NCBI GenBank assembly: GCA_009602725.1
Contig: WELB01000042.1
Coordinates: forward strand, 288,773-312,911
DNA from: Spirogloea muscicola
Taxonomy: Eukaryota; Streptophyta; Zygnematophyceae; Spirogloeales; Spirogloeaceae
Direction: 5' to 3'
DNA length: 24,139 nt
Positions 3,841 to 24,139 of this stretch are shown here, piece by piece. The number at the start of each line of letters is the position of its first letter. Position 1 is the first letter of the stretch. The notes under the pieces are model-generated. The model was not told where the DNA came from. It made no database searches and saw only the letters and a program-made list of their open reading frames with translations. The translations under genes were made by a program, and so were the position numbers.

Positions 3841-3949
3841 TGTTTGCAATGGGGTCAAGGGAACTGTGCGTCAGCCGGCTGAAGGAGGACTTAAGTAAGC
3901 AGGAGTAAGCACTATAGAGCTAACATCTGATCCTGTGGGCTGGCCTCTC

Positions 3950-4488: not shown

Positions 4489-5175
4489 GGATGGAGAAGA
4501 TTCAAAGAGCCGGAAGGAGCCCTTTCTTCCTGACACCAGACAGCTAGACACCTGACTACCGCAGACGGAAGCTCCAATTAATAGAAGAAAGAACGAGAGG
4601 GCTCGCCCATGGAGAAGAGTGGCTGGCAAAGCGAGCCAAAAAGAAATCGACAATAGCCAAAGCCAAAGAAAAGAGGTGTCGAAGAAGGACTACGCTACAA
4701 AACACAAGACGATGCAGAGGGAAGCTCAGTACCCGCGAGTAAGCAACATCAAGTCAGAGTAGCTCGCTGCAGGGAAAGAGGCACTCCGTTGAGACCTTTT
4801 AATAATCACGAGTGAGCAGCAGCAAGTCGGAGCGACTCGCAGCTGGGAAAGAAGTGGCTCTCCCAATGAAGAAGAAAGGGCTCGCCCATTGAGGATAGGG
4901 GCTGGAAAAGCCAGCCCAAAAAGGATGAACGAAGTACGAGAAGGGGGCCAGGGGAAGCGCTTAGAAAAACAAGCACAAGAAAGAAACAAAGCAGCTACGA
5001 AGCACTCAGTAACCCCTGCTAAGCAGCCTCAGGTCAGAGAAGCTGGGCTCCTGGAAGCGGGTTCCCAAACGGGGCAAGGATGCGTGTGAATTAAGAGATG
5101 GGGAGGCCATGTGTGGCCAAGTACAAGGGCAAGCACTCTGACAAATGTAGGTCACCTGCTGCTAAGCTGACCCGT
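4470..5175 (-). repeat. Stack of truncated RLE retrotransposon 3' ends
   Basis: Several fragments follow each other in the same - orientation. Antisense C-termini can be read at 4726-4795 (SASFPAASYSDLMLLTRGY then stop), about 4799-4850 (SDLLLLTRDY then stop at 4799-4801), and about 5006-5060 (FSDLRLLSRGY then stop at 5006-5008). Each is followed, on the - strand, by a different 3' UTR. The 4868-5060 unit includes the stem-loop at 4898-4917 and closely resembles units at 22034-22215 and 22303-22490. The 4670-4795 unit matches the end of the + copy at about 20095-20215. Confidence 0.75.
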
Positions 5176-5400
5176 TCAGTAACCACGAGTCAGCACATAG
5201 AGGTCGCTAATTGATGCCCGAATACCGGACGGCAATCGACAAGGTCTTGAACTACCAGCTAAGGCTCGACCAGCTTTCCGATGCAACGCATGAGCCTGAG
5301 CTCGCTGCAGACAAGCTGACACTCGACGACGGAGGAATGACAAGTAGGCTGCCGGCATGCCCGGCAAGGGCTGTGAAAAGCCAGCCCGAAAAGAATTGAC
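5176..5400 (-). repeat. RLE retrotransposon C-terminus and tail, divergent copy
   Basis: On the - strand the end of an ORF reads ...AHALHRKAGRALAGSS...SDLYVLTRGY and stops at 5176-5178. This parallels the QRSMARALHLRAGRALAAAS...SDLRLLSRGY end of the better copies. Downstream of the stop (about 5110-5175) the sequence matches in reverse complement the direct repeats at 18864-18939 and 19007-19081, which define one 3' UTR subtype. A further stem-loop (5368-5387) marks the tail of another copy. Confidence 0.6.
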
Positions 5401-5473
5401 GAAATGGGAAGAGGTACCTGGTTTAATGTCTCCTCCGTTTGGGAGTGCCAGACGGTGCCGCAACCATTGCGCC

Positions 5474-6019: not shown

Positions 6020-7065
6020 CACTAGCGACTTCCCACCCGGGACAGGCGTCAAGCACGGTGGGCGGAGTGCATGGCCAAATTTACCCATTTCCAGTGTGTG
6101 TACCGCCCTAAAAGAAGAAACGTTGCGGATCCAGTAAGCCGCAACATTGCAGGGGCTTCTGTGGCGGCTGTCTTGCACGCTTCGGGAATTCAGACCGCAG
6201 ACGTGCGGCCTACCCATGAAGCTGCTCGGCAGTCCACCGCCAACATCTTTGAGCTGTGTGTGCGTATTCGTGATGGGTATGGTACAGACCCATGGTTTGC
6301 AAGGAAGACCAACACATGCACACTCACAAATGACCAAGCCTTCTGGTGGCGAGGTGACGCCATTGTAGTCCGCGACTGCAATGCCTTGCGCAGCAGCATC
6401 TTGCAAGAGCTGCATGAGCCTCCGTATAGTGGTCTTTTGGGTATGGGAGAGACAAAGAAAGCTATCCAGCTTCTCTTCTGGTGGCCGGACTGGCAACTTT
6501 CAAGTGGAGTCTTCTGTGAAGACTTGTGCCACCTGCCAGCGCAGTAAGGCACGCTCTCATAAGCCTGCCGGGTTGCTCCAACCATTGGAGACCTCCGAGG
6601 AACTGGTTTGATGTCAGTGTTACCGCTGACGCGGAGCGGTTGCGACGCCATTGTCGTATTTGTGGATCGGCTTAGTAAAGTGGCCCATTTAGTGCCTACA
6701 AAGGTGTCAGCCAAGGAATTTGTTGATACACTTGTGGATCGAGTTTGGAAATTGTACGGAGTACCCGAGCGGTCCGTGTCTGACCGCGACCCTCGCTTTA
6801 CGGGGCACTTCTGAAAAGAATTGTGCAGGTTTATTGTCACCTAGCAATCCATGTCTACAGCTTTCCACCCACATAGTGATGGTCAGACTGAGCGAATGAA
6901 GAGGGCAGTGGAGGACATGTTAAGGCAGTAAACCCCACCCAAAGTGACTGGGATGAGTACCTTTGCTCCAGCAGAGTACCTTGTGTACAACGCTTTCCAT
7001 GAGTCCACCAAAAACACACCCTTCTTCCTCAAATACGGTCAGCATCCCCGATCATCTTTAGAGGT
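6020..7065 (+). pseudogene. Ty3/gypsy pol remnant: RNase H end and integrase
   Basis: The order of blocks is that of a Ty3/gypsy pol. First comes the RNase H end, RRQARWAECMAKFTHFQCVY then RRNVADPVSR (6044-6150). Next is the integrase H2C2 region, ILQELHEPPYSGLLGMGETK...AIQLLFWWPDW (about 6400-6490). A frameshift leads to VKTCATCQRSKARSHKPAG (about 6515-6570). The integrase core follows: LPLTRSGCDAIVVFVDRLSK...LYGVPERSVSDRDPRFTGHF (6620-6813), then a stop where Trp is expected. STAFHPHSDGQTERM (6854-6898) and, after another stop and frameshift, STKNTPFFLKYGQHP (about 7000-7050) complete it. At least two frameshifts and two stops make it inactive. It ends abruptly near 7065 where an antisense LINE fragment begins. 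No LTRs were identified. Confidence 0.85.
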
Positions 7066-7089
7066 GGGGAGGCCGGAACGTGTCTCGGT

Positions 7090-7600
7090 GGACTGCAGGC
7101 TAGCCTGCAGCAGAGCGGCTAGCGCCTTGCAGAAGTCCGGGTGCTGGATGCATTCTGCCGCGCTCGCCAGGATGCCGGTGTCGAAGGATGTGTACGCCGC
7201 CATCGCCGCCGAAGAGGCAGGGAGGGCTTGGGCCAGGTACAGCGGCTGCTGTGCAATGCACCTCGTTAGCATGGCGAGCGTCAGCTGCATGTCTTGCAGC
7301 TCTTGGAGGCGGTCCGCCGGCCGGAGATGCTCCTGCAGCCGTGCCTGCAGCTGCTCCACCACAGAGGCTGGCGAGCCTAAGGCGACTCTAAGATGAAACA
7401 TCAGACGGCTGCTGATACTTAATCCTCCCAAGGAGAGTGGGGCCCCCAGCGGGTGTCTGACAGCCGGAGGGCAGGCATAAAAGAAGCACTACATAGAAGG
7501 GCCGGCAGGCCCTGCGGGGACCAGGCACAGCATTTCTCCGAAGCCAGAGGGCTGGGCTTTGTCTCTGGGCTTGGCCATTCACAGTTCCGAGTGGTCCATC
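7090..7600 (-). pseudogene. RLE retrotransposon fragment: region after the RT palm
   Basis: The - strand encodes KCCAWSPQGLPA, GCQTPAGGPTLLG, then RLQEHLRPADRLQELQDMQL, TLAMLTRCIAQQPLYLAQAL and AAYTSFDTGILAS. These match in order the longest copy (about 23690-24070: KCAAWSPCGLP, GCQTPANGFTLLG, LPELQDMQLALAMLTKAIAE). The frame is shifted between the SPQGLP and ELQDMQ parts. Both ends are missing, so this is an internal fragment. It abuts or interrupts the gypsy integrase at its left edge. Confidence 0.8.
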
Positions 7601-7639: not shown

Positions 7640-7802
7640 ATTTGGCCCCTTCGGAGCTTCGTCAATTGCTTTCGGGCTGGCTTTCTACAGGCCTTGCCCC
7701 CATTGGGACAGCCACTTCTCATTCACAGCCCCCGCCCTCTGGGGAAGAGTGCATTCCTTTGGGCTGGCCTCTCCCAGCCACCAGTTAATCTGGCCGCGCT
7801 TG
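7640..7802 (+). repeat. Two successive retrotransposon 3' ends with stem-loops
   Basis: A stem-loop-like segment near 7675-7695 is followed by CCCCCATTGGGACAGCC. A second segment, 7749-7802, is the conserved terminal block with GGGCTGGCCTCTCCCAGCC. A T-run and unrelated sequence follow at 7803. The orientation is +. Confidence 0.6.
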
Positions 7803-8080
7803 TTTTTTCTCTGTGGAAGAGTTCACCACTTTGTGGGTGGGGTGGTAGCCGCACGACAACCGGCGTCGGTCTCACAGAGCCGTGGAACGCTCTGCTCTGA
7901 CGGTTGCGTGGGACCGTGGTCGGTCGCTCCACCGGGAGTTGCGGCGGCCGGCGCGCCGGGGGTGGGGGGCTGGAAAGCGAGGGTCCTGGTAACGTGACCG
8001 TCTGGCGGGGGGGAGGGGAGGAGGAGGTGGGGAGGCGCCCATGGCGGCGGCGGCTCCGGGGCTGACTTTGGACGCCGCCC
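7803..8080. other. Unassigned upstream flank of the receptor kinase gene
   Basis: I see no repeat match or coding signal here. The stretch grades from average composition into GC-rich DNA and ends next to the CGG tracts. Promoter sequence for the downstream receptor kinase is plausible, but no specific element could be recognised. Confidence 0.3.
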
Positions 8081-8091
8081 CTTGAACTCGA

Positions 8092-8262
8092 GCGGCGGCG
8101 GCGGCGGCGGCGGCAATGAGCCGAGGCGCTTGAAGCGGCGGCGGCGGCGGCGGCGGCGACGGCCCGGCGGNCGGGGCCGGCGCCGGAGCCCTCCATCGAC
8201 TGGCAGTACTTGTTCAGCCTGCCGCCGATGTATAACCCGCCGCCGCCGCCGCCGCCGCCGTA
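8092..8262. repeat. Opposed CGG and CCG microsatellites with an undetermined base
   Basis: Two (CGG)n tracts (about 8092-8114 and 8131-8160) are followed by a (CCG)n tract (about 8238-8262). The G-rich and C-rich halves are complementary and could fold into a long hairpin in RNA or single-stranded DNA. The N at 8171 lies in the GC-rich part between them. In one + frame the region reads SIDWQYLFSLPPMYN followed by a proline run. It may be an unplaced 5' exon of the kinase gene or its 5' UTR. Confidence 0.7.
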
Positions 8263-11400: not shown

Positions 11401-13612
11401 ACATGGTTGGAGTCTCTCACATGGTCGGAGTCTCTCCAAATAGTAGCAAGTGACTAGGTTGTCTGCTGAAATTAAAGAGCATCTGCATGGTACATTGAGC
11501 GCTTCTCTATATTCTGGCAAGCTCTTGCCAACATTGTTAAGCTTCTGGTGTGTCATGACACGCTCCACCAGCAGCTTTGCTGCCTTTTTCCTGCTGATAA
11601 TGGAAGCACTGTCTGGCTGCAGCACCCCCAGCAAAGGGGAAATCCTCCAGCAACTCGAGTGCAGCCCTGATAGGGGGCCTAGTTGGTGGAGGGGTCTTCC
11701 TCGTAGCGATGCTCCTCGTAGTGCTCATCTGGTGGAGAAGGCACACTTACAAGCCCCCCTCGTTGGGCATGCTGCACTTGAGTGAGTTGCTATGCTGCCT
11801 TTGCATGGCAGCTAGGTAAATAGAGGCCATGGTTGCTGTTATTGCTCCGCTTTCATCCTATACAGATTCCCCTTGTAGTGCTTTATTTGACTTGTCGCAA
11901 GCCTCCGTGATTATCGCCATATAGCTCTATGTTGCTGCTGCATGCCCAGAGCTATTACTTCTCTTAACTGTCAAACTGTCTGTTTGCATGTACCTGTGCA
12001 GACGGAGGCATCACAGAGTTCCGCGCATGGGAGCTGGAGAAGGCCACTGGCGGTTACAGCAGCTTGCTGGGCCAGGGTGGCTTTGGCAAAGTTTACTTGG
12101 CCAAGCTCAATGACAAGGCCAGGACGTTTGCAGCAGTGAAGAGGGCCAACAATGTTAATCAGGAGGCAGACTCGGCATTCTTCAGAGAGGTAGAGCTGCT
12201 CAAAAGGATCCACCACCGGAGGCTTGTCAACCTGCTTGGCTACTGCTGCGAGGAGAAGGAGCAGATGCTTGTGTATGAATACATGGCTGGCGGCAGTCTG
12301 TATGACCGCATGCACGGTAAGCTGTACCAATCTTACTTAAAGAATTTTTATTGTATCGCGGTTACGGTGGAGAGTGATGACAGTACTGGAACTTTCAACT
12401 GCCTGAATCTGCAAAGGAGTATGTGTTGCAGGACTAAAGACTGCCAAAGTCATTCCTTGGGACATCCGAGTGCGCATTGCCTACCAGGTCGCTCTGGCAC
12501 TGAAATACTTGCATGAGGAGGCAAACCCTCCGATCATCCACAGGGACATCAAGTCCAGCAACGTCTTGCTAACCCAGGACATGGATGCCAAGGTACACAA
12601 CCTTCACTTCTTGCTATTGACATTTACTGTCAGTGTAGCCGTTGTTAAGACAGTCTTTTATCCAGGCTCAGAGTGCCGGGATGGACATGTATTATGGTAT
12701 GGAGGGCCAAGGCTGTGTACTCCAGCTTCTCACAAGCAGCCCGTGGTCTCGGTTCGTTGTTACAGGTGGCAGACTTTGGCCTCTGTAAGGAGGCGCCCCC
12801 TGGCCAAGAATACTTTGAGTCAGTGGAGACTAACGTCATGGGGTCCTTTGGCTACCTAGACCCCCAGTATGTGCAGACTTGGGTCTTGTCAGAACGTTCC
12901 GATGTGTTCAGCTTTGGTGTGCTGCTGCTGGAAATCATATCAGGTCAAAAAGCTGCAAATAAGGACACCTTCCTCGGGCTTCTGGTGAGTGTCACAAGCT
13001 GGTCATTTATGCCTGCTGTTGGTTGAGTTGGCGCAAAGTGCGCTTCTGCTGCAAGTCTTAGGTAAAGGAGGACAGCTTGCTCAGTGTGCAATTACACATA
13101 TTGCTAGAGAGTGCTCAATGAGCACCAACGGGCTTGCCTCATTAGGACCTGTTCGACAGCCAACTGATAATTGCAGTCGGTTTGCAATAATTATTGTTGT
13201 CCTCCAGGCAGCGCCGTACTTGGAGAATGTCGACAGGCTAAAGGAGTTTGTGGACCCCAAGCTGGGCGACGAGTACGACTTTGCGCAGCTTTGCGTACTT
13301 GCTGAGGTGGCCCGCTTCTGCGTGCGGCTGAACGGGAGCGAGCGTCCGACAATGGGCGAGGTGGTCGAGAGCCTGGAGCAGAATGTGCCCGCGCTCAAGA
13401 GGGAGGTCGATGGGGACAGCACCAAGGCGTGGGCAGACGTCAAGGATGCAGAGAGGGGCCAGCAGGACACCTACGGCAACGGCGTGAGAATGCCAGAAGC
13501 TCCGAGGACCGCAGACCAGTCCAGGGAGTCGGCACGGTCCGCCGAGTCGGGCGGTTCGGATGAGACTAACCCAGCAGACCAGCTGTCCCTCTCAGCTGTC
13601 CAGCCTCGCTGA
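8451..13612 (+). CDS. LRR receptor-like serine/threonine kinase, 16 exons
   Basis: Predicted plasma-membrane receptor. Exons: 8451-8632, 8813-8893, 9095-9166, 9397-9492, 9703-9774, 9919-9987, 10075-10146, 10308-10379, 10605-10679, 10948-11013, 11243-11334, 11623-11781, 12002-12316, 12432-12592, 12766-12984 and 13208-13612. Phases close throughout, giving about 735 residues. An LRR-cap-like segment (ALLAMKEALGNP...ECWADDSR) precedes about nine LRRs of the L-x-x-N-x-L-x-G-x-I-P type. A membrane span (about 331-354) ends in WWRRH. The kinase has the P-loop GQGGFGKV (393-400), Lys416, HRDIKSSN (511-518), DFG (531-533), GSFGYLDPQY and SDVFSFGVLLLE. It is an RD kinase with no missing catalytic residue and a charged tail. 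The wording around AAVKRANNV and FFREVELLKRIHHR recalls plant RLKs of the At1g49730 type, from memory only. The ATG at 8451 gives no signal peptide, so an upstream exon is likely. The acceptor of exon 4 is the least certain. Confidence 0.9.
11067..11087 (+). repeat. (AC)n microsatellite in a kinase-gene intron
   Basis: About ten AC units followed by a short A-run lie in the intron between the last LRR exon (ending 11013) and the exon starting at 11243. Confidence 0.9.
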
Positions 13613-14335: not shown

Positions 14336-14450
14336 GCAAACAAGCAGCTCTTCCAATGTAAGCTAATGGCTGTGAGAGGCCAGCCCAAAAGAATGTATAA
14401 TGTCTGAAGGGGCCGAAAGGCGCAAGTTCCACGAAACTAGTCTCCATGGC
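14336..14450 (-). repeat. Isolated stem-loop repeat in the convergent spacer
   Basis: The sequence AGCTCTTCCAATGTAAGC followed by the stem-loop GGCTG...CAGCC (about 14368-14386), then AAAAGAATG and GGGGCCGAAAGGCGC, matches the cluster at 3950-4245 and the retrotransposon tails. It is the only member of the family found between the kinase and CCT4 genes. Confidence 0.55.
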
Positions 14451-15337: not shown

Positions 15338-18188
15338 CTACCGAGTGATGACAATGTCGTCGATCTTGAGAACCATGCGTACGCACTCAGTCGCTAGCGA
15401 GACAGCGCTGGTGCTGACGAGTAGCGGCTGCACCACATTCTCCTCCAGGATGTTTGTCACCACGCCCTTTCGCACGTTGATGCCTGTGTTCACCTGCGTA
15501 ATGCCAGGATGCCGCTTACTCATGCTTCCAGACCACTCATGTCGTGTGAGCACCTAACCAGATTACACGTGAAAATGATGGTTGAGCTACTGGCATAGAG
15601 CAGCCCCAGAGCAGGCTTACCTCTCCCATGGCATGGTGGTTGCGCAGCTCTGTGACAATGGCAATTGGGTTTAGGCCCGCATTCTCCGCAAGAGTGTATG
15701 GAACTACCTGGACAGGGGCAAATGCTGGGCGAGAGTGAGCATCGTAGCTTATAGTGCATGACAGTCAGTGCTGTGAAGCAGCAACTCCTTCCTACCCATT
15801 CCCTGCCCTCCTCCTCTCTCCCCCCTCCGCCCCTCCCACCCTCTCTCTCAAGTGATTTCGTCAGTTAGGAGGAGGATGCTGCACCTCCATGGCCTCCGCA
15901 AACGCCCGGACGCAGTAGCTCTCCATGCCCTGCAGCGTCTTTGCCCACGCGCCAAGCTGCCGAGATATCTCAATCTCTGGCGCGCCTCCGCCTGCAATCA
16001 GGAAGCGCTTGGTAACCAAGCAGCGAACCACGCACAGCGCATCGTGCAGGCTGCGCTCCGCCTCGTCCAAGACCTGTTCCCCCCAAAAGAAGTAGCAGAT
16101 CCACGGTTCAGTCCAAGTAGCAGACGCATTTAGAAACCACGGCAATGTAGCTGACTCCTGAGGTGCCAGTATGCAAGTCTCGTAGCACTCACCAGCTGGT
16201 TTGAACCACGGACGACAACGGTCATCGTTCGCCCTTGGTTCTTGATGCCAGTCACTCTCACGACCTGCCACAGCAGTGCTGGGAGTCACTTATGCTCAGT
16301 GGGCTGCAACTAGGAATGCGGCGAGCGTCACGCAATGGGCGCAGGTCGTTGGCCACACTGCTCGGTGCAGCAGCCTCCTTGAGGTGCAGATATATGTGCA
16401 GCAGCAGAACAGGTGGTGCTTGTTGCAGTCCAACTGGCAAGTCTCGCAGCGAGCATCCCACCTTGCTCTCGCCCATCGTGACCTCCTCGACAAGGTCGGC
16501 GGAGCCCAGCTTCTCTGCACGGAAGTGCTCGATGTTGGCAATGGGCAGGCAGCCGAGCGTGCGGGTGATGAACTCAATGTCCTCGCGCTCCACGTCCTTG
16601 ACAACCAGGATCTTAGCCTTGGCCAGGTAGTGCAGTGACAGGTCCGTGACGGCGTCGCGCAGAATGCTCTTCTGCACCAGCAGCACGTTGCAGCCTGCCG
16701 CGCGGATCTTCTTGACCATGCCCAGGATGTAGCTCCGCTCCTCCTTGAGTATGCGGTCCATCTGCAGAGTGCCACCAACAAGGGGTGCGCAGCTCAGGAC
16801 CGCAGGTCGAGGGGCCCGTTCCCTTAGAGATGAAGTCCTGCATTTAGGTGGAGCCCATCAGCAGGCCTCAGGCCCTCGTTCCTAGGCCCTTACCTCAAAA
16901 CCTGAGTTGAGTGGTGATCCGCAACAGTAGCTAGCGGGTGTCGGGATGGCAAACCTGCGCGTAGTCGGAGATCACAACGTTCTGCTCCATGTCGGTCTTG
17001 GGCGGCGAGACCTGGAACTGGATGAGCCCAATCTTCGCATTCTCGATGCGCGTCGGGCCACCCGCCGCATGGCTCGCCTTTTGGTCAAACACCAAACCCC
17101 GCACGATCTCGGTGTCGTCGATCTGGCGGGCAGGCGCATCATCATCAGTAGGCCACTCGGCAAGGCCGAGTGCAGAGGGACAGCAGCCTTCGGCAAGAAG
17201 CTCACCGTGCCCCCGAGCTTCTTGATGACCTTGATGTTCCGCAGGTCCACAGGGTCAGCGGGCTGCTCGGGGTCCACGAGGCTCAGCACGCAGTCCACAG
17301 CCATGGGCGCCAGCAGCGACGAGTACTGACTCACGACCTGGCGCATCATATTGGCGCAGCCAGCGCAGCAAGTGTGTGAATCTGGCGACCACGAGAAGGA
17401 GCGTGCACAGTAGCCAGGCTGACGGACACGGCCGCTCCCTGTGCCGCCCCACACCTTGCTGTTGAGCGCCGTGCTGGCGCTCTTGACGAGCGCGCCGCGG
17501 TCGGAGAGCTCCACCGGCACCGCCATCGCCGTGAGCACCTCCACGGCCTTCTCGGAGGCCTTGTGGAGCGCCTCAGAGATGACGGTGGGGTGCACGCCCT
17601 TGGCCAGCAGCCCGAGGCACTGCTTCAGGAGCGCGCCGGCCAGAACCACCACTGCAGGCTCGCATGGCACAGCATTGTAACGCGTCAGAGCTTCTAGTCC
17701 TGCCGCACTCTCAAGACGGCGCTGGAGAGCTCATGGAGCTTCGCAGGAGCACTGCTGGCGTGCAGGAAGGCCGGCGCCCACAAACCCGTCGTGGTGCCGT
17801 CCCCGGCCACGATGTCCTGCGACTTGGACAGCTCCACCAGCATCTTCGCGGCGGGCTGCGTCACCTCCAGCTGGAGCGCAGTGGCAAGAGTGGCGCAGGC
17901 CACCGTCAGAAGGTGCGCGGCAGCGAACGAGGGCCGACAAGCCGCAAGAGGAATGGGCGCCGCCCGGACCTTGTTGAGGATGGTGGCGCCGTCGTTGGTG
18001 ATGATGACCTCGCCCGACGACGTGGTGAGCATCTTGTCCATGCCGCGGGGCCCCAGCGAAGTGCGCACGGCGTCCGCCACCGCCTTGGCCGCCAGCATGT
18101 TGGCCTGCCGCACATCGTCCTTGCGCTTGGTGTCCACGTACGTGTCCGTCCGGGACGCCGCGCCCGGCACCACCTGCGCCGCCGGCAT
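15338..18188 (-). CDS. CCT4: T-complex protein 1 subunit delta (CCT4), 10 exons
   Basis: Delta subunit of the cytosolic TRiC/CCT chaperonin, which folds actin, tubulin and other proteins with ATP. Exons in transcription order: 18188-17970, 17870-17786, 17651-17455, 17337-17206, 17122-16955, 16761-16462, 16264-16193, 16073-15885, 15707-15621 and 15493-15338. All have GT-AG borders and consistent phases. They give 1605 nt, 534 residues, the usual CCT length. Group II chaperonin motifs: [21 protein letters not shown] joined to [10 protein letters not shown], and [11 protein letters not shown] with the ATP-site GDGTT (about 96-100). Later come [13 protein letters not shown] and [15 protein letters not shown]. 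The subunit assignment rests on [10 protein letters not shown]-like and [20 protein letters not shown] segments and the ending [20 protein letters not shown]...KIDDIVITR, which match the delta subunit. No stop or frameshift was found. The start ATG at 18186-18188 is the natural one for the family. Confidence 0.96.
15784..15850. repeat. Polypyrimidine/polypurine tract in CCT4 intron 8
   Basis: About 65 bases are almost pure C/T on the + strand, hence G/A on the transcribed - strand, inside the intron between the exon ending at 15885 and the one starting at 15707. The tract lies about 34 nt after the donor. Such tracts can form triplex DNA. No function is implied by the sequence alone. Confidence 0.8.
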
Positions 18189-18380
18189 GACGCCGCCGCA
18201 GCCGCCGCCGCCGCCGCCGCCGCCAACGCCGTCTCCGCCTCGGCGCAGCGGCGTACACGCTGCCGCGCCACCACGCGCCCGCCTTCGCCTCGNCGCGGCG
18301 GCGGCGCTCGAGGCGCGCGGGGGCCTGGCCGAGGAGCTTTAGGGGGAGGAGGGGGACACGAGAGGTATGGGGTTTGGGGG
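18189..18380 (-). other. GC-rich 5' flank of CCT4 with CCG repeats and an N
   Basis: Directly upstream of the CCT4 start lies a (GCC)n tract (about 18190-18222 on +) and a CGG-rich segment containing the undetermined base at 18293. This resembles the upstream regions of the two other genes. It probably holds the CCT4 5' UTR and core promoter. No defined promoter motif is visible. Confidence 0.5.
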
Positions 18381-18414: not shown

Positions 18415-18510
18415 GCCGCTTCTTCTGGGCTGGCCGACCACACCCATCGTGACCTCGTCCATTCTTTTGGGCTGGCCTCTCCCAGCCACCAGTTAATCTG
18501 GCCGCGCTTG
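18415..18510 (+). repeat. Conserved retrotransposon 3' terminal block
   Basis: Positions 18457-18510 repeat, almost base for base, the terminal segments at 5662-5716 and 7749-7802, with the stem-loop at about 18470-18487. At 18511 the sequence switches through a C-run to an internal piece of the same family. This is the junction between one insertion's 3' end and the next copy's truncated 5' end. Confidence 0.75.
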
Positions 18511-18517
18511 CCCCCCT

Positions 18518-18860
18518 TCTCGCTGCAGAGGTCTATGGCCCGCGCGCTGCACCTGCGTGCAGGCAGAGCCCTCGCTGCTGCCTCTGGCTCTGGCCAGGGG
18601 ACCCGCTTCCAGGAACCCAGTCTCTCTGAACTGAGGCTCTGCTTAGCAGGGGTTACTGAGTGCTTCGTAGCTGCTTCGTTTCTTTTCTGTGCTTGTTCTT
18701 CGTACTTCCCCTGGCCCCTTCTCGTCCTTTGTTCATTCTTTTCTGGGCTGGCTTTTTCCAGCCCCTATCCTCAATGGGCGAGCCCTTCCCCCTATCGGGC
18801 TGCCCTTGCCCCTATTGGGCTCCGTATCTGCCATCCAGTATTCAGGAATCGGTCAGCGAC
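18518..18860 (+). repeat. 5'-truncated RLE retrotransposon copy, 3' UTR subtype B
   Basis: The copy opens with QRSMARALHLRAGRALAAAS, GSGQGTRFQEPSLSELRL and a degraded end. A stop/3' UTR follows (TTACTGAGTGCTTCGTAGC...) with the stem-loop at 18745-18764 and AATGGGCGAGCCCTT. The UTR is the reverse complement of the units at 4868-5060, 22034-22215 and 22303-22490. About 50 codons of the ORF end are present. Confidence 0.8.
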
Positions 18861-19081
18861 CTTTATGTTTTGATCCGTGGTTACTGAGCAGGTCAATCTA
18901 CTGTAGGTTATGTAGGTTCTTAAGATGTGCTTGCCTTTGTACTTGGCCATTTGGCCTTCGTTTGTTTCAAATACACGACATTTTCATTGGGGCCCTTGCC
19001 CCCATTAATGTTTTGACCCGTGGTTACTGAGCGGGTCAATCTGCCGTAGGTCACGTAGGTCTCCAGATGTGCTTGCCTTTG
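18861..19081 (+). repeat. Two direct copies of 3' UTR subtype C
   Basis: Segments 18864-18939 and 19007-19081 are about 75 nt each and mostly identical. They start at TATGTTTTGA(T/C)CCGTGG, contain the TTACTGAGC stop context and GGTCAATCT, and end at GATGTGCTTGCCTTTG. The first follows SDLYVLIRGY-stop and the second keeps only VLTRGY-stop. A reverse-complement copy lies near 5110-5190. Confidence 0.75.
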
Positions 19082-19495
19082 CAACTTAGAAGAAGTGGCT
19101 CTCCCAATGGGGGCAAGAGCTGTGAGAAGCCAGCCCGTAAAGAATTGACAAGGTTCGAAGGGGCCAAATTATGAGCTAAGCAGCAACTACGGGGCCTGAA
19201 GAGGCTATGGCAGAACGGGGGAGGATGGACCATTCAGTAGTTACGAGTGAGGAGCCTCAAATCCGACAGACTAGCTGCCGGAAAAGTATCCTCCTGACGA
19301 AAGCCGGAGGCCGCAGCGAGAGCACGGCCAGCACGCAGATGCAAGGCGTGGGCCATGGACCGCTGAAGGGGAGACGGACAATCGCATACGATAAACCTGA
19401 GCCCACGAGCCAGCGGCGTTGAAGTCAGCCGGCTCACCGCGCTTGCGGGACACAGCGCGCCTTGCAAGCCTGGCCAGCAGGTCGAGCCAGTGGGA
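19082..19495 (-). pseudogene. 5'-truncated RLE retrotransposon copy, - strand
   Basis: Reading leftward: SHWLDLLARLARRAVSRKRG, DFNAAGSWAQVYRMRLSVS, then after a frameshift QRSMAHALHLRAGRALAAAS and SLSDLRLLTRNY with the stop at 19234-19236. The 3' UTR continues to about 19082, with a weak stem-loop at 19119-19136. It covers only the region after the endonuclease. Its truncated 5' end meets the next copy head to head near 19490. Confidence 0.8.
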
Positions 19496-20215
19496 CACGG
19501 GGGCGAGCGGACCGCTTCCCACGACCTCCTGCGCCGCTTGAAGTTCTTCTTGCGCGATGGTATGCAGGGGGTGTTCGGAGGCGGGCTTCAAGGTCGCGGT
19601 GGAGAACTCCTCCATCATGCCCATCCAGCTGGGCGCGGACGGCCAGCCCCATACGCGACGCGCCGACCTGGTCGCCATCCCGCCCGGCGGCGGTCCCCGC
19701 ATCATAGCTGACGTGGTGACAACTGACTGCATCGACTCCGCCAATCCCACCAGATCGGCGTCGTTTGCAGGGCACGCGGTCGGCCAGGCGGCCCGGGGCA
19801 AGGAGCGAAAATATGCTGATCACCCGGTGGAGGATGAATTCGCGGCCCTGGCGATGGATGTACTTGGGGGCTTTCGGCAGCCGTTGGCTGGATCTCATTC
19901 AGCGGCTTGCCCGCCAGGCCGTGGACCGGCGGCCGGGTCTGCCAGGGGCGATGCCCGGCTTCAACGCCGCCGGTTCGCTCGCACAAGTCTTCCGCATGCG
20001 CCTGGCCGTATCGCTTCAACGCTCCCTTGCCCACGCCGTCCACACGCGAGCAGGCCGTGCTATGGCCGCCGCCTCTGGGTCTCGGCGGAGTGCCTCTGTC
20101 CCTGCAGCGAGCTACTCAGACCTGATGTTGCTCACTCGTGAGTACTGAGCTTCTCTGCATCGTCTCTGTGTTCTGCTGTGTTTTGTAGTGTAGTCCTTTT
20201 TTCTGCCAGCGCTTC
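19485..20215 (+). pseudogene. 5'-truncated RLE retrotransposon copy, + strand (zinc knuckle to 3' end)
   Basis: The copy starts at GHGGERTASHDLLRRL, just after the zinc-knuckle cysteine. It continues through VAVENSSIMPIQLGAD, TRRADLVAIPPGGGPRIIAD, VVTTDCIDSANPTRSASFAG and KERKYADHPVEDEFAALAMD. After a frameshift come SRWLDLIQRLARQAV, FNAAGSLAQVFRMRLAVS and AASYSDLMLLTREY with a stop at 20146-20148. The RLE core residues (Asp of RADLV, Asp of ADVVTTD, Lys/Tyr of KERKY) are all visible here, making it the best copy for that domain. The 3' UTR (CTTCTCTGCATCG...TTTTGTAGTGTAGTCC) is subtype A and matches 4670-4728 in reverse complement. Confidence 0.85.
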
Positions 20216-21350
20216 CTCGTCCACGGCCAGCGCGCCCTGGAGCGGGCGGCAGCTGAAGTGAAGACCGGCCAGCTGCACTTCCAGGCAGCCCTCCGTTCTG
20301 CCCGCGACGGGTCCTGGCGGCCCACCCCGACTCGTCGGCGCAGGCCGTCCCATTCGTGCACCTCGCGCACACCCCTGACCTGCGTGCCCAGGCACGCTAC
20401 ATGGCGCTGGTGGAGACGGTGGCCTTCGACAAGACAGTTGAGCTCCTTCCTCAGCACGACCTTCGAGGGCGCGCCCGGCTCCTGTCGGCCTCCTCCCCCG
20501 CGGCGGCGGCGTGGTTTGATAGCGCTCCCCCTTTATGCGCCGCTAACCATGCCCGACGCGGTCTTCCAGACGGCGGTTCACCGGTTCCGGGCCTCCTCCC
20601 TCCCTGCCTCGTCGGTGTGGTGCAATGTGGACGCAGAGCCCGCCACACCGACGCTGCGGAGCTGGCTGCACACAAACTCCGCTGTGCGCACGGAAGCGAG
20701 AGGAGCGGCTCGCAGGACCTTCTACTGGACGCCATGCATGGCGTGTACCTGGAGGCGGGAGGGCTACACGGTGGCGGTGGAAAACACATCAGTCATGCCC
20801 ATCCAGCTGGGCGCGGACCGTCAGCTCCATACCCGGCGCGCTGACCTGGTCGCATCCCGCCCGGAGGAGGTCCGCGTATCTTTGCGAATGTGGTGACTGC
20901 CGACTGCGTTGACTCCACCAGCCCCACCAAATTGGCGTCGACAGCAGGGCAAGCGGTAGGCATGGCGGCTCATTGCAAGGAGCGCAAGTACGCGATCACC
21001 TGGTTGGGGACGAGTTCGCAGCACCTGCTATCGACGTACACGGGGGCGTTCCGCAGTCGCTGGCTGGACCTCCTGCAGCTGCTTGCCCGGTAAGCCATCG
21101 CTCGTCGCCAGGGTCCGCAAGGGGAGCTGCCCGGCTTCAACGCTGCCTGCTCAATTGCCCAGGTCTCCGTATGCGGCGGTCAGTCTCTTTCCAGCGTCCC
21201 CTGGCTCACACAGTCCACTCGCGCGCAGGCCGTGCTTTGGCTGCTGCATCTGGGTCTAGGCGGGGTGCCTCTTTCTCAGCTACGAGTTACTCCGACTTGC
21301 TGCCGCTCACTTGTGGTTACTAAGCTTTCGTCTGCGGTAATCTCGTGTCT
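20205..21350 (+). pseudogene. RLE retrotransposon copy, + strand, multiply frameshifted
   Basis: The copy begins at QRFLVHGQRALERAAAEVK and LHFQAALRSA. It continues in shifting frames through the AVHRFRASSLP region, a knuckle remnant (ELAAHKLRC), GYTVAVENTSVMPIQLGAD, RRADLV, HCKERKYAITW and DEFAAPAIDVHGGV. SRWLDLLQLLAR then ends in a stop. It closes with PLAHTVHSRAGRALAAASGS and SYSDLLPLTCGY-stop (21321-21323). It lacks the reverse-transcriptase palm. It follows copy 19485-20215 in direct tandem, with its 5' end at the T-run of that copy's 3' UTR. Confidence 0.82.
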
Positions 21351-21352
21351 AG

Positions 21353-21690
21353 CTGGGAAAGGCCAGGCCCAAAAGAATGGACAAGGTCCTAAGAGCCAGG
21401 AGGGTGCCTAAAATCACACAGCTAGAAACGAGACAACCGTAGATGGAAGCTTAGTAACCACGAGTGAGCAGCAACAAGTCGGAGTAACTCGGACGAGGCA
21501 CTCCGCCTAGACCCAGATGCAGCAGCCATAGGGCAGCCTGCTCGCAAGTGGACTGCCTGAGCAAGGGATCGCTGGAAAGAGACTGACAGCCGCATGCGGA
21601 AGACCTGGGCAAGCGAGCCGGCCGCGTTGAAGCCGGGGAGCTCCACTTGCTGACCCGGTCACCGATCGATGGCCTGCCGGGCAAGCCGGT
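21353..21690 (-). pseudogene. RLE retrotransposon tail copy, - strand
   Basis: Reading leftward: LPGFNAAGSLAQVFRMRLSV, SFQRSLAQAVHLRAGCPMAA and SYSDLLLLTRGY with the stop at 21451-21453. The 3' UTR follows down to the degenerate stem-loop at about 21353. It faces the end of the + copy tail to tail. The two tails are reverse complements of each other over about 40-50 nt. Confidence 0.8.
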
Positions 21691-21995
21691 GCAGGAGGAA
21701 GAGCTCTCCCATAAAAGGTAGGGGCCGGGTAAGGCCAGCCAGCATGGACAAAGTCCGAAGATCCGAAAGCCGAAAGGCGCTTCAAACACACATCTAGCAC
21801 GAGACTACAGCGGAATGGGCTTACTAACCCCGGGTTAGCAGCACTCGGAGTAACTTGCAGCTGGAAAGGAGGCACTACGACGAGACCCAGAGGCAGCAGA
21901 GCAGCAATAGCAGCTGCAGAAGGTCCAGCCAGCGACTGCCAAAAGCCCCATAAATGGTGATCGTAAGTGCCGCGAGTTCATCACCAGCAGGGTGA
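21690..21995 (-). pseudogene. RLE retrotransposon copy with internal deletion, - strand
   Basis: Reading leftward, the frame goes from the DEF...VHGAFG-type region (here ITLLVMNSRHLRSPFMGLLA) and a shifted equivalent of SRWLDLLQLL directly to AASGSRRSASFPAASYS and a degraded stop near 21835. The FNAAG...LHLRAG block present in every other copy is missing. Its 3' UTR continues to about 21690 with a weak stem-loop at 21721-21741. Confidence 0.65.
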
Positions 21996-22033: not shown

Positions 22034-22300
22034 CGGAAGAAGGGCTCGCCCATTGAGGATGGGGGCTGGGAAATGCCAGCCCAAAAAAGAGTGAACAAAG
22101 TACGAGACGGGGCCAGGGGAAGCACTAAGTAAAACAAGCACAGAAAGAACCTAAGCAGCTACGAAGCACTCAGCAACCGCTGCTAAGCAGCCTCAGCTCA
22201 GAGAAGCTAAACTTTTGGAACCGAGGCCCCTGGCCAGAGCCAGAGTCAGCAGCGAGGGCTCTTCCGGCACGCAGGTGCAGCGCGCGGGCTATAGACCTCG
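22034..22300 (-). pseudogene. RLE retrotransposon tail, subtype B
   Basis: Reading leftward: RSIARALHLRAGRALAADSG, then FSELRLLSSGC and a stop at 22170-22172, so the usual RGY end is mutated to SGC. The 3' UTR carries the stem-loop at 22061-22082 and continues to about 22034. Confidence 0.78.
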
Positions 22301-22302
22301 AG

Positions 22303-24139
22303 AGAAGGGCTCGCCCATTGAGGGTAGGGGCTGGAAAAAGCCAGCCCAGAAAAGAATGTACAAAGGACGAGAAGGGGCCTGGGGAAGTACGTAGAACAAC
22401 AAGCACAGAAAAGAAGCGAAGCAGCTACGAAGCACTCAGTAACCCCTGCTAAGCAGCCTCAGGTCAGAGAGACTGGGTTCCTGGAAGCGGGTCCCCTGGC
22501 CAGAGCCAGAGGCAGCAGCGAGGGCTCTGCCTGCACGCAGGTGCAGCGCGCGGGCCATAGACCTCTGCAGCGAGACGGCCAAGCGCATGCGGTACACCTG
22601 CGCTAGCAACCCTGCTGCATGGGAGTCCACCGGCTCCCCATGGAAGCGGCGGGCAATGGCGTGACGAGAGAGCTGGTTGAGCAGCTCGAGCCACCGAGCG
22701 CCGAGCGCCCAGCGCCCCGTGAGTATCGATGGCGAGCGGGAAGAACTCGTCTTCCCGCGGGTGATCTGCGTATTTTTAGCTCCTTGGCCCGAGCTGCGCA
22801 GGCTACTGCATACCCAGCTTTGGTGGCACACTGGGTTGGATGGGAGCGGTCATAGGAGTCGGTGGTCACCACGTCCAGGAGAAGACGTGGCCCGCCTGCC
22901 AGTGGGGTGGCCACAAGGTCCACGCGACGAGCGTGGAGACCGTCGGCCCGTTGCTGGAGTGGCATGACGGCAGAGTTCTCGGCTGCCACCGAGAAGCCCG
23001 CCTCCGCAAGGATGCCATGCATCGCATCCCTGAATTGGTCATGGGCCGCGGTCCGCTCTCCGCCGTGGGAACAGCGCAGAACATGAGCGGCCAGCTCCCC
23101 CTGCTCGGCCCCTCGCTCACCACACTCACACTGTTGCACGCCCTGGAGGCATGACGGCGGCAAGCCCAGGAGCCGGTGGACGGCACTGCAAAACGCCTCA
23201 TCCGGGAGGGTGAGGGCTCATTGAGGGGGAGGGCCTGGAGCCACGCCGCGGCCCGCGGGGAGGAGGCCGAGTGGAAACGCGCGCGCCCGCGCAGGTCGGC
23301 CTCCGGGAGCTGGAGCAAGGTGGTGGTGAAGGCTGCCTTGTCCATTGCGGCTGCGAAGCGCGCTTGGATGCGCTGGTCGGCGGTGTGCGCGAGGTGCGCA
23401 AAGGAGACCGCCTGGCCCGCCAGGTCCGGGTGCACCACGAGCAGCTCCTGGTGGGCGGAGCGTAGCGACGCCTGGAAGGGCAGCACACCCCTGTCGACCT
23501 CCACCACCGCCTGCTCCAGCGCGCGCTGGCCGTGGACCAAGAAGCGCTGGGCCACGGAGGCGGCTGTCTGCGCCCAGCTGCCGAGGTACGCTGCCCGGCA
23601 GGAACGAACGAGCGGGCGCAAGCCGAGACCGCCGTATCTGAGGGGAAGCGTGGCCTGGTGAAGGGCTGCAGGCGACTGGGGGAAGCCCTGGTGGCGGACC
23701 AGGGCCGCCAGGCTCGTCACCATGCCTGCGTCAAAACCCGCGTACGCCGCCAGCGCCCCTGGGGACGGCGGGGTGGCCCGAGTCAGGTACTGGGGTCTCT
23801 CCGCAATAGCCTTGGTCAGCATGGCCAAGGCCAGCTGCATGTCCTGCAGCTCGGGGAGCCGGGCCGCAGGCTGGAGGTGCTCCTTGAGGCGGGCTCGCAG
23901 CTGCCCCTCCACGAAGGACGGCGCGCCGATAGGGACCCCCAGGAGGGTGAAGCCGTTTGCGGGAGTCTGGCATCCGGCGGGCAGCGCCAGGGTGGGAGGG
24001 AGGCCGCAGGGGGACCAAGCCGCACACTTCGACGCCCGGGTGGACAGGCCGAGGGTGGCCAGCTGCCGCTCGAAGGTGACGAAGGCCGCCGCCACGTCTT
24101 CCGGAGGGCCGACCATGGTGGTGTCGTCGGCGAAGGTGG
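22303..24139 (-). pseudogene. Longest RLE non-LTR retrotransposon copy (RT, zinc knuckle, endonuclease, 3' end)
   Basis: The copy runs off the right edge on the - strand. In transcription order: FADD (the RT catalytic box, at 24130-24118) in TFADDTTMVGPP; LSTRASKCAAWSPCGLPPT; LPELQDMQLALAMLTKAIAE; YGGLGLRPLV; QRFLVHGQRALEQAVVEVDR; and ADLRGRARFHSASSPRAAAW. After a frameshift near 23210 comes the knuckle CECGERGAEQGELAAHVLRC with a following His, a spacing like that of R2-class elements. The RLE core is RRVDLVATPLAGGPRLLLDV with VTTD, then KYADHPREDEF in a third frame. It ends RWLELLNQLSRHA, QRSMARALHLRAG and SLSDLRLLSRGY (stop 22436-22438), with a subtype B 3' UTR and the stem-loop at 22326-22347. 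At least two frameshifts mean it is inactive as sequenced. The apurinic-endonuclease or N-terminal part, if any, lies outside the window. Confidence 0.88.

Follow-up and report, generated by a model that had tools for sequence, protein, structure and literature searches.

The window, i.e. the whole 24,139-nucleotide stretch of Spirogloea muscicola DNA that was analysed, contains a receptor-like kinase gene (11968–13612; intron-split as far as the frames show), a CCT/TCP-1 chaperonin gene on the minus strand (frames within 16972–18338, two of them with Cpn60_TCP1), which probably extends further downstream, and fragments of a non-LTR retrotransposon on both strands (Table 1). The kinase exon at 11968–12516 is nearest, within the best 60 of 655 matches to solved structures, to the plant receptor kinases SYMRK (1.7e-19), then FERONIA and BRI1, which makes a host of the green plant lineage likely; the frame at 12989–13612 has no Pfam match at 0.01. 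Two GC-rich repeats (8117–8170 and 18192–18247), each near an N base, are similar to one another in opposite orientation.

Copies of the retrotransposon were located by tblastn of the window, with parts of copies A and B as queries, and by self-comparison of the window. Apart from copy A, coding fragments lie on the plus strand (B, C and G) and the minus strand (E, F, X, H, I, J, J′ and K), and several other stretches consist of just UTR and tail. None of the copies seen in the window is intact. Copies C and F form an inverted pair of 630 bases (21069–21698; 78% identical) with tails meeting at ~21383. The start of copy G is uncertain (18504 to 18524) and adjoins the tail end of another copy. 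Directly beside copy K are the remains of a Ty3-like integrase (6026–7130; Integrase_H2C2, E 7.9e-5, 23.1 bits, cut-off 25.5).

Table 1 Copies, fragments and tails of the non-LTR element in the window.
Feature	Position	Strand	Evidence or relationship
Copy A, C-terminal part of RT (FADD), thumb and linker, 306 aa	23220–24137	−	Motifs; dN/dS against copies K and C
Copy A past first frame break: linker with LP, knuckle CX1CX12HX3C, R-x3-H, RVDLV, LLLDVVTTD, KEL	22771–23217	−	Motifs; hhalign register with R2Bm
Copy A past second break: KYADHPREDEF (KY of K..KY)	22713–22775	−	
Copy A past third break: C-terminal extension, GARW, RGY-stop	22439–22720	−	Motifs; dN/dS
Copy A 3′ UTR and tail: hairpin GGGCTGG...CCAGCCC at 22329–22347, end GGGCGAGCCCTTC	22304–22436	−	
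Copy X, 5′-truncated: C-terminus and tail	22038–22299	−	86% identical to A over 263 bases
Copy F: C-terminal part and tail	21351–21703	−	Tail to tail with copy C
Copy C: linker, knuckle, RLE (RRADLV, IFANVVTAD, KERKYA), C-terminus, frame breaks	20207–21325	+	
Copy B: RLE (RRADLV, IIADVVTTD, KERKYADH) and C-terminal extension, frame breaks	19496–20149	+	
Copy E: C-terminal part and complete tail, end CTTGCCCCCATTGGGAGAGCC	19096–19489	−	
Two successive C-terminal/UTR copies, starts 18829 and ~19003	18829–19095	+	Both adjoin CCTTGCCCC[TC]ATT
Copy G, 5′-truncated	18514–18788	+	94% identical to A
Second-type tail, end CCAGTTAATCTGGCCGCGCTTG	18453–18511	+	Directly upstream of copy G
Two successive tails, ends 7719 and 7803	7658–7803	+	
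Copy K: RT thumb/linker fragment	7132–7541	−	Adjoins Ty3-like integrase stretch
Two-hairpin tail, then truncated copy I starting at or near the tail end	5114–5403	−	
Copy H, 5′-truncated	4877–5066	−	Between CTTGCCCC and ATTGGGAGAGCCACTTC, two halves of a tail end
Copies J′ and J: C-terminal parts and tail	4596–4852	−	

Coding region and likeness to R2

Copy A, on the minus strand from 24137 to 22304, is the 3′ half of the element. It begins at the window edge with TFADD (24137; read downward, TFADDTTMVGPPEDV), and the window does not cover the part of the RT that precedes FADD or any N-terminal region. FADD is followed by GLSTRASK and GFTLLGVPIG, at the positions of what we take to be RT blocks 6 and 7, then by a thumb and linker of ~330 residues that separate the RT blocks from the knuckle and include, upstream of the latter, SAVHRLLGLPP (helix, LP). 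The knuckle, CECGERGAEQGELAAHVLRC, has the form C-x-C-x12-H-x3-C, and downstream of it lie, in order, ERTAAHD (R-x3-H), AEN, RRVDLV (VD), LLLDVVTTD (DV) and KEL then KYADH (K..KY), before a C-terminal extension with GARW that closes with RGY-stop near 22436 and a conserved 3′ tail ending at ~22304. All the motifs listed in the earlier note for 22303–24139 (FADD, C-x-C-x12-H-x3-C, an Arg/His segment, D...DVVTTD and K..KYAD) are thus present, on the minus strand. Copy A is dead, since its frame changes three times, at about 23218, 22773 and 22715 (placed against copies B and C). No open frame joins RT to endonuclease, and KELKY spans the second break, with KEL in one frame and KY in the next; the corresponding KERKY lies within one frame in copies B and C.

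The reading frame of the element is coding, by codon evidence: dN/dS was 0.09–0.45 in 15 of 16 segment pairs, which were chosen by us, and 0.70 in the remaining one (A3-G; A against G, 91% identical in protein), and four shifted-frame controls gave 0.83, 0.99, 1.03 and 1.05. A pattern of the ordered landmarks, composed after the sequence had been seen, had no match when the joined copy A protein was shuffled 200,000 times. Seven element frames were compared with Pfam and none reached a cut-off; the frame of copy K had two hits below it (E 0.073 and 0.12). A CxCG...GxHxxxC knuckle with a similar C-terminus is presumably common in proteins of algae and other protists.

Most of the landmarks described for RLE LINEs in PMC5678591 are present and in register: downstream of the RT, the knuckle is followed by H, E, D, D and KX2KY, ordered in copy A across the frame breaks. 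The knuckle spacing given in the same source (CX2-3CX7-8HX4C) differs from the CX1CX12HX3C of copy A, and the P of PD and the R of RH are kept in none of copies A, B and C. The assignment to the RLE class by order and spacing, made in the earlier note, therefore stands for the order and for most landmarks, which are in R2 register, but not for knuckle spacing or the P of PD. Both replacement forms reported there, RVDLV (A) and RADLV (B and C), were seen, in three copies rather than two. Copy B retains H, E, D, D and KX2KY, and in copy C the H is replaced by Q and the second catalytic D by N (IFANVVTAD). That loss of the proline marks a dead enzyme was considered and dropped: the neighbouring D is kept, and [AV]D occurs in all three copies.

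Unconstrained hhalign of a profile of family copies against R2Bm (PDB 8gh6) aligned 82 columns for the RLE part and 153 for a longer profile, with the linker, VH, HGG-R, H, E, [VP]D, DV and K..KY falling on their R2Bm counterparts. In the longer alignment the first C and the H of the knuckle lie on those of R2Bm and the other two of the three C do not lie on C. The score was reached by 2 of 400 column shuffles for the RLE part and 7 of 200 for the longer profile, and the reversed profile scored 11.2 against 20.0 for the real one. The E of AEN takes the place of the E that follows the first strand in R2Bm, and the distance from FADD to the first C is 334 residues here (joined frames) compared with 308. 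Like R2, the element thus has RT, a linker with LP, a knuckle and then H, E, D, D and K..KY in register; it differs in the knuckle (CX1CX12HX3C), in [AV]D for PD, in having no R directly before the H and in GX2W rather than GXW. R2 proper inserts in 28S rRNA genes, whereas no Rfam family, rRNA included, reached its gathering threshold anywhere in the window, and an rDNA target was rejected on that account.

AlphaFold models of two pieces (5 and 4 alignment rows) had mean pLDDT of 46 and 55. Each has a helix after three strands, the second and third of which carry the two D, and an extra helix before the strands in the longer model gives helix-strand-strand-strand-helix. With these low-confidence models Foldseek found no match at E ≤ 0.001, and R2 was not among the best 50 of 989 or the best 50 of 758 matches. 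The best 50 of the first search include chains of TDP2, which we take to be phosphodiesterases of APE-like fold; at E 0.11–0.26 and TM below 0.3 they were attributed to noise, the model being poor. R2 was not listed by PDB searches with single sequences or with the profile, whose matches were discarded as chance hits, the profile search giving designed helical repeats. The likeness of the post-RT domain to the R2 endonuclease is therefore seen in the hhalign register, but with modest scores and without a Foldseek match at that threshold. From its motifs, the domain is predicted to adopt an R2-like PD-(D/E)xK fold.

3′ tails and tail-to-head junctions

Fifteen aligned tails have ~50 bases in common (TTCTTTTGGGCTGGC, a loop, CAGCC and a variable stretch) and mostly end in sequences such as GGGCGAGCCCTTC, GGGAGAGCCACTTC or GGCCGCGCTTG. 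The window has 17 matches to a hairpin pattern where 0.43 would be expected, and 7 to a pattern of the hairpin's 5′ side (0.02 expected). This conserved 3′ hairpin is common to copies with unrelated upstream DNA, and sharing can be confined to the tail (e.g. 14367–14395 and 7752–7780; 93% over 29 bases). In single folds, 12 of the 15 tails form the first hairpin in simple form, the others (t4642, t7670 and t18465) folding otherwise or with an interruption. RNAalifold of all 15 gave 5 pairs, none changed on both sides: the stem of the first hairpin is conserved as sequence, not covarying. A second hairpin, seen in some single folds, had no common alignment and is not claimed.

None of the listed tails is followed by poly(A). 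They end in CTTC or CTTG, then pass into varied, often pyrimidine-rich flanks, and several run into CTTC/TTC stretches. By analogy with the stringent-type LINEs described in PMC3747384, the RT probably recognises the 3′ end of the element. One complete minus-strand tail (14339–14417) lies between the kinase and chaperonin genes, with no element coding sequence found upstream by tblastn, and is a candidate non-autonomous (SINE-like) element; similar tails occur at 3933, 4240 and 4181. A tRNA-derived SINE was rejected, as ARAGORN found no tRNA in the window.

Several truncated copies begin where the tail of another copy ends. Once this pattern had been seen, positions were assigned by eye to fourteen 5′ starts and as many tail ends, leaving aside A, B, C, E and others with starts that could not be placed and including one tail (4851) without the first hairpin. 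Seven of these starts lie ≤45 bases from the end of a same-strand tail: X (about 5 bases past the tail of copy A), G (3), J′ (−1), I (−5), the 7757 copy (30), the 4573 stretch (23) and the 18877 copy (41). The remainder are J (55), H, the 19020 copy, the 3836 stretch, F, the 18465 copy and K. Random placement within element-rich stretches gave a mean of 0.76 and at most 6, with none of 20,000 trials reaching 7, and tails on the opposite strand are more than 45 bases away from all 14 starts. Because the list was made after the pattern was seen, the count of 7 in 14 is a lead rather than a test. The second half of one tail type, CCTTGCCCCNATTGGG, has 7 matches at ≤3 mismatches against 1.1 expected; two are in complete tails, one is at the end of copy G, and four (two with 3 mismatches) adjoin 5′ starts at 3845, 5064, 18804 and 18994.

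This arrangement suggests either template jumping or insertion of new copies into existing tails. R2 RT is described as jumping between templates in vitro, leaving one at its 5′ end and resuming at the 3′ end of the next (PMC8857657). Copy H seems to interrupt a tail because it lies between the two halves of a tail end. As the only copy readable on both sides, it could not sustain a claim of fixed target-site duplications, which was dropped. Unequal recombination, or joining of repeats during assembly, could instead have produced the junctions with neither jumping nor targeting. We regard this as a real though less probable possibility: the stretch is very repetitive and contains N bases, and A-X and tail-G align across their junctions (22039–22361 with 18788–18457), but the joined copies are of different tail types, and copy H sits inside a tail end, albeit of a tail with no recognisable first hairpin.

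Affiliation and proposed mode of proliferation

The dead 3′ half and the shorter copies very probably represent a non-LTR family ending in RT, helical linker, zinc knuckle and R2-like RLE. The earlier note's proposal of such a family, with a knuckle and an R2-like endonuclease region, is borne out by landmarks in register with R2Bm and by dN/dS constraint. The kind of element is already known; placing the family in a named clade was considered and dropped. By description, RT and a C-terminal RLE also occur in Utopia, NeSL, CRE, Hero and R4, and Utopia has in addition a zinc finger at its C-terminus (PMC4640811). Searches with the RLE frame and the RT/linker frame found no relatives in bacterial/archaeal or viral contigs (5 of 6 peptides informative in each), and the exact 29-base tail had no match in viral contigs; with collections of this make-up, these results carry no information on how rare the family is.

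Green algae are the only hosts tabled for Dualen/RandI in PMC4438587 (see also PMC8226300), and no paper on a different green-algal RLE element was among the open-licence papers listed (in one case 20 of 612), which does not prove that there is none. Dualen encodes both APE and RLE (PMC3636483, PMC4640811), so a Dualen/RandI element with its C-terminal RLE here and its N-terminal APE outside the window, like the rest of the 5′ part, would be a special case of the R2-like RLE family proposed above. A host of the green plant lineage speaks for this identification, but we consider it rather doubtful. Eight green-algal families are tabled in PMC3747384 with (ATT)n or (CTATTT)n ends, and neither repeat follows the tails here. 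Such repeats are typical of RandI rather than defining, and the argument drawn from them is weak because SINEX-2_CR of Chlamydomonas, linked to RandI-2/3, has a (CTTT)n end (PMC3747384), which is closer to the CTTC seen here, and tails in the window reach CTTC/TTC stretches. The lack of an RNase H match in the seven element frames also speaks against Dualen/RandI, as a weak negative. An APE-class LINE (L1/Zepp or RTE-like) with a knuckle region resembling RLE by chance is very improbable. APE LINEs too have a linker ending in a CCHC knuckle (PMC5678591), Zepp-like L1 elements form clusters in green algae (PMC8226300), as copies do here, and the fold and profile evidence for an RLE is weak; against this, the knuckle is followed, in an order like that of R2, by R-x3-H, E, D, D and K..KY, landmarks that are found again in constrained copies that have diverged, and Zepp and L1-1_CR are tabled with (A)n (PMC3747384), whereas the family here combines RLE landmarks with a hairpin tail lacking poly(A).

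For an R2-like RLE family, the observed motifs and their order, the codon-level constraint, the conserved tail and the 5′ truncation can be accommodated as follows. The endonuclease would nick target DNA, and the freed 3′ end would serve as primer for reverse transcription beginning at the 3′ end of the element RNA, where the RT may recognise the terminal hairpin (GGGCUGG...CCAGCC) and then the CUUC/CUUG end instead of poly(A). Many copies would stop early and be 5′-truncated, and the RT might switch RNAs, jumping to the 3′ end of a second one, or copies might insert into existing tails. A stronger version, in which this is a separate green-algal RLE lineage with a changed knuckle and [AV]D, multiplying by insertion into, or jumping from, its own and related 3′ hairpin tails so that the tail is both RT signal and landing site, is a speculative proposal that we think unlikely to hold in full.

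R2-type RLE retrotransposons are under development for RNA-templated DNA insertion (e.g. PMC11371274), and the range of these enzymes would be extended by a green-lineage family whose knuckle and catalytic motif are altered. Should the family prove not to be Dualen, it would also bear on how APE replaced RLE. Template jumping may not be needed for proliferation (PMC8857657); the tail-to-head arrays, if they occur genome-wide and are not joined repeats, could be a natural record of it, and are the part most worth following.
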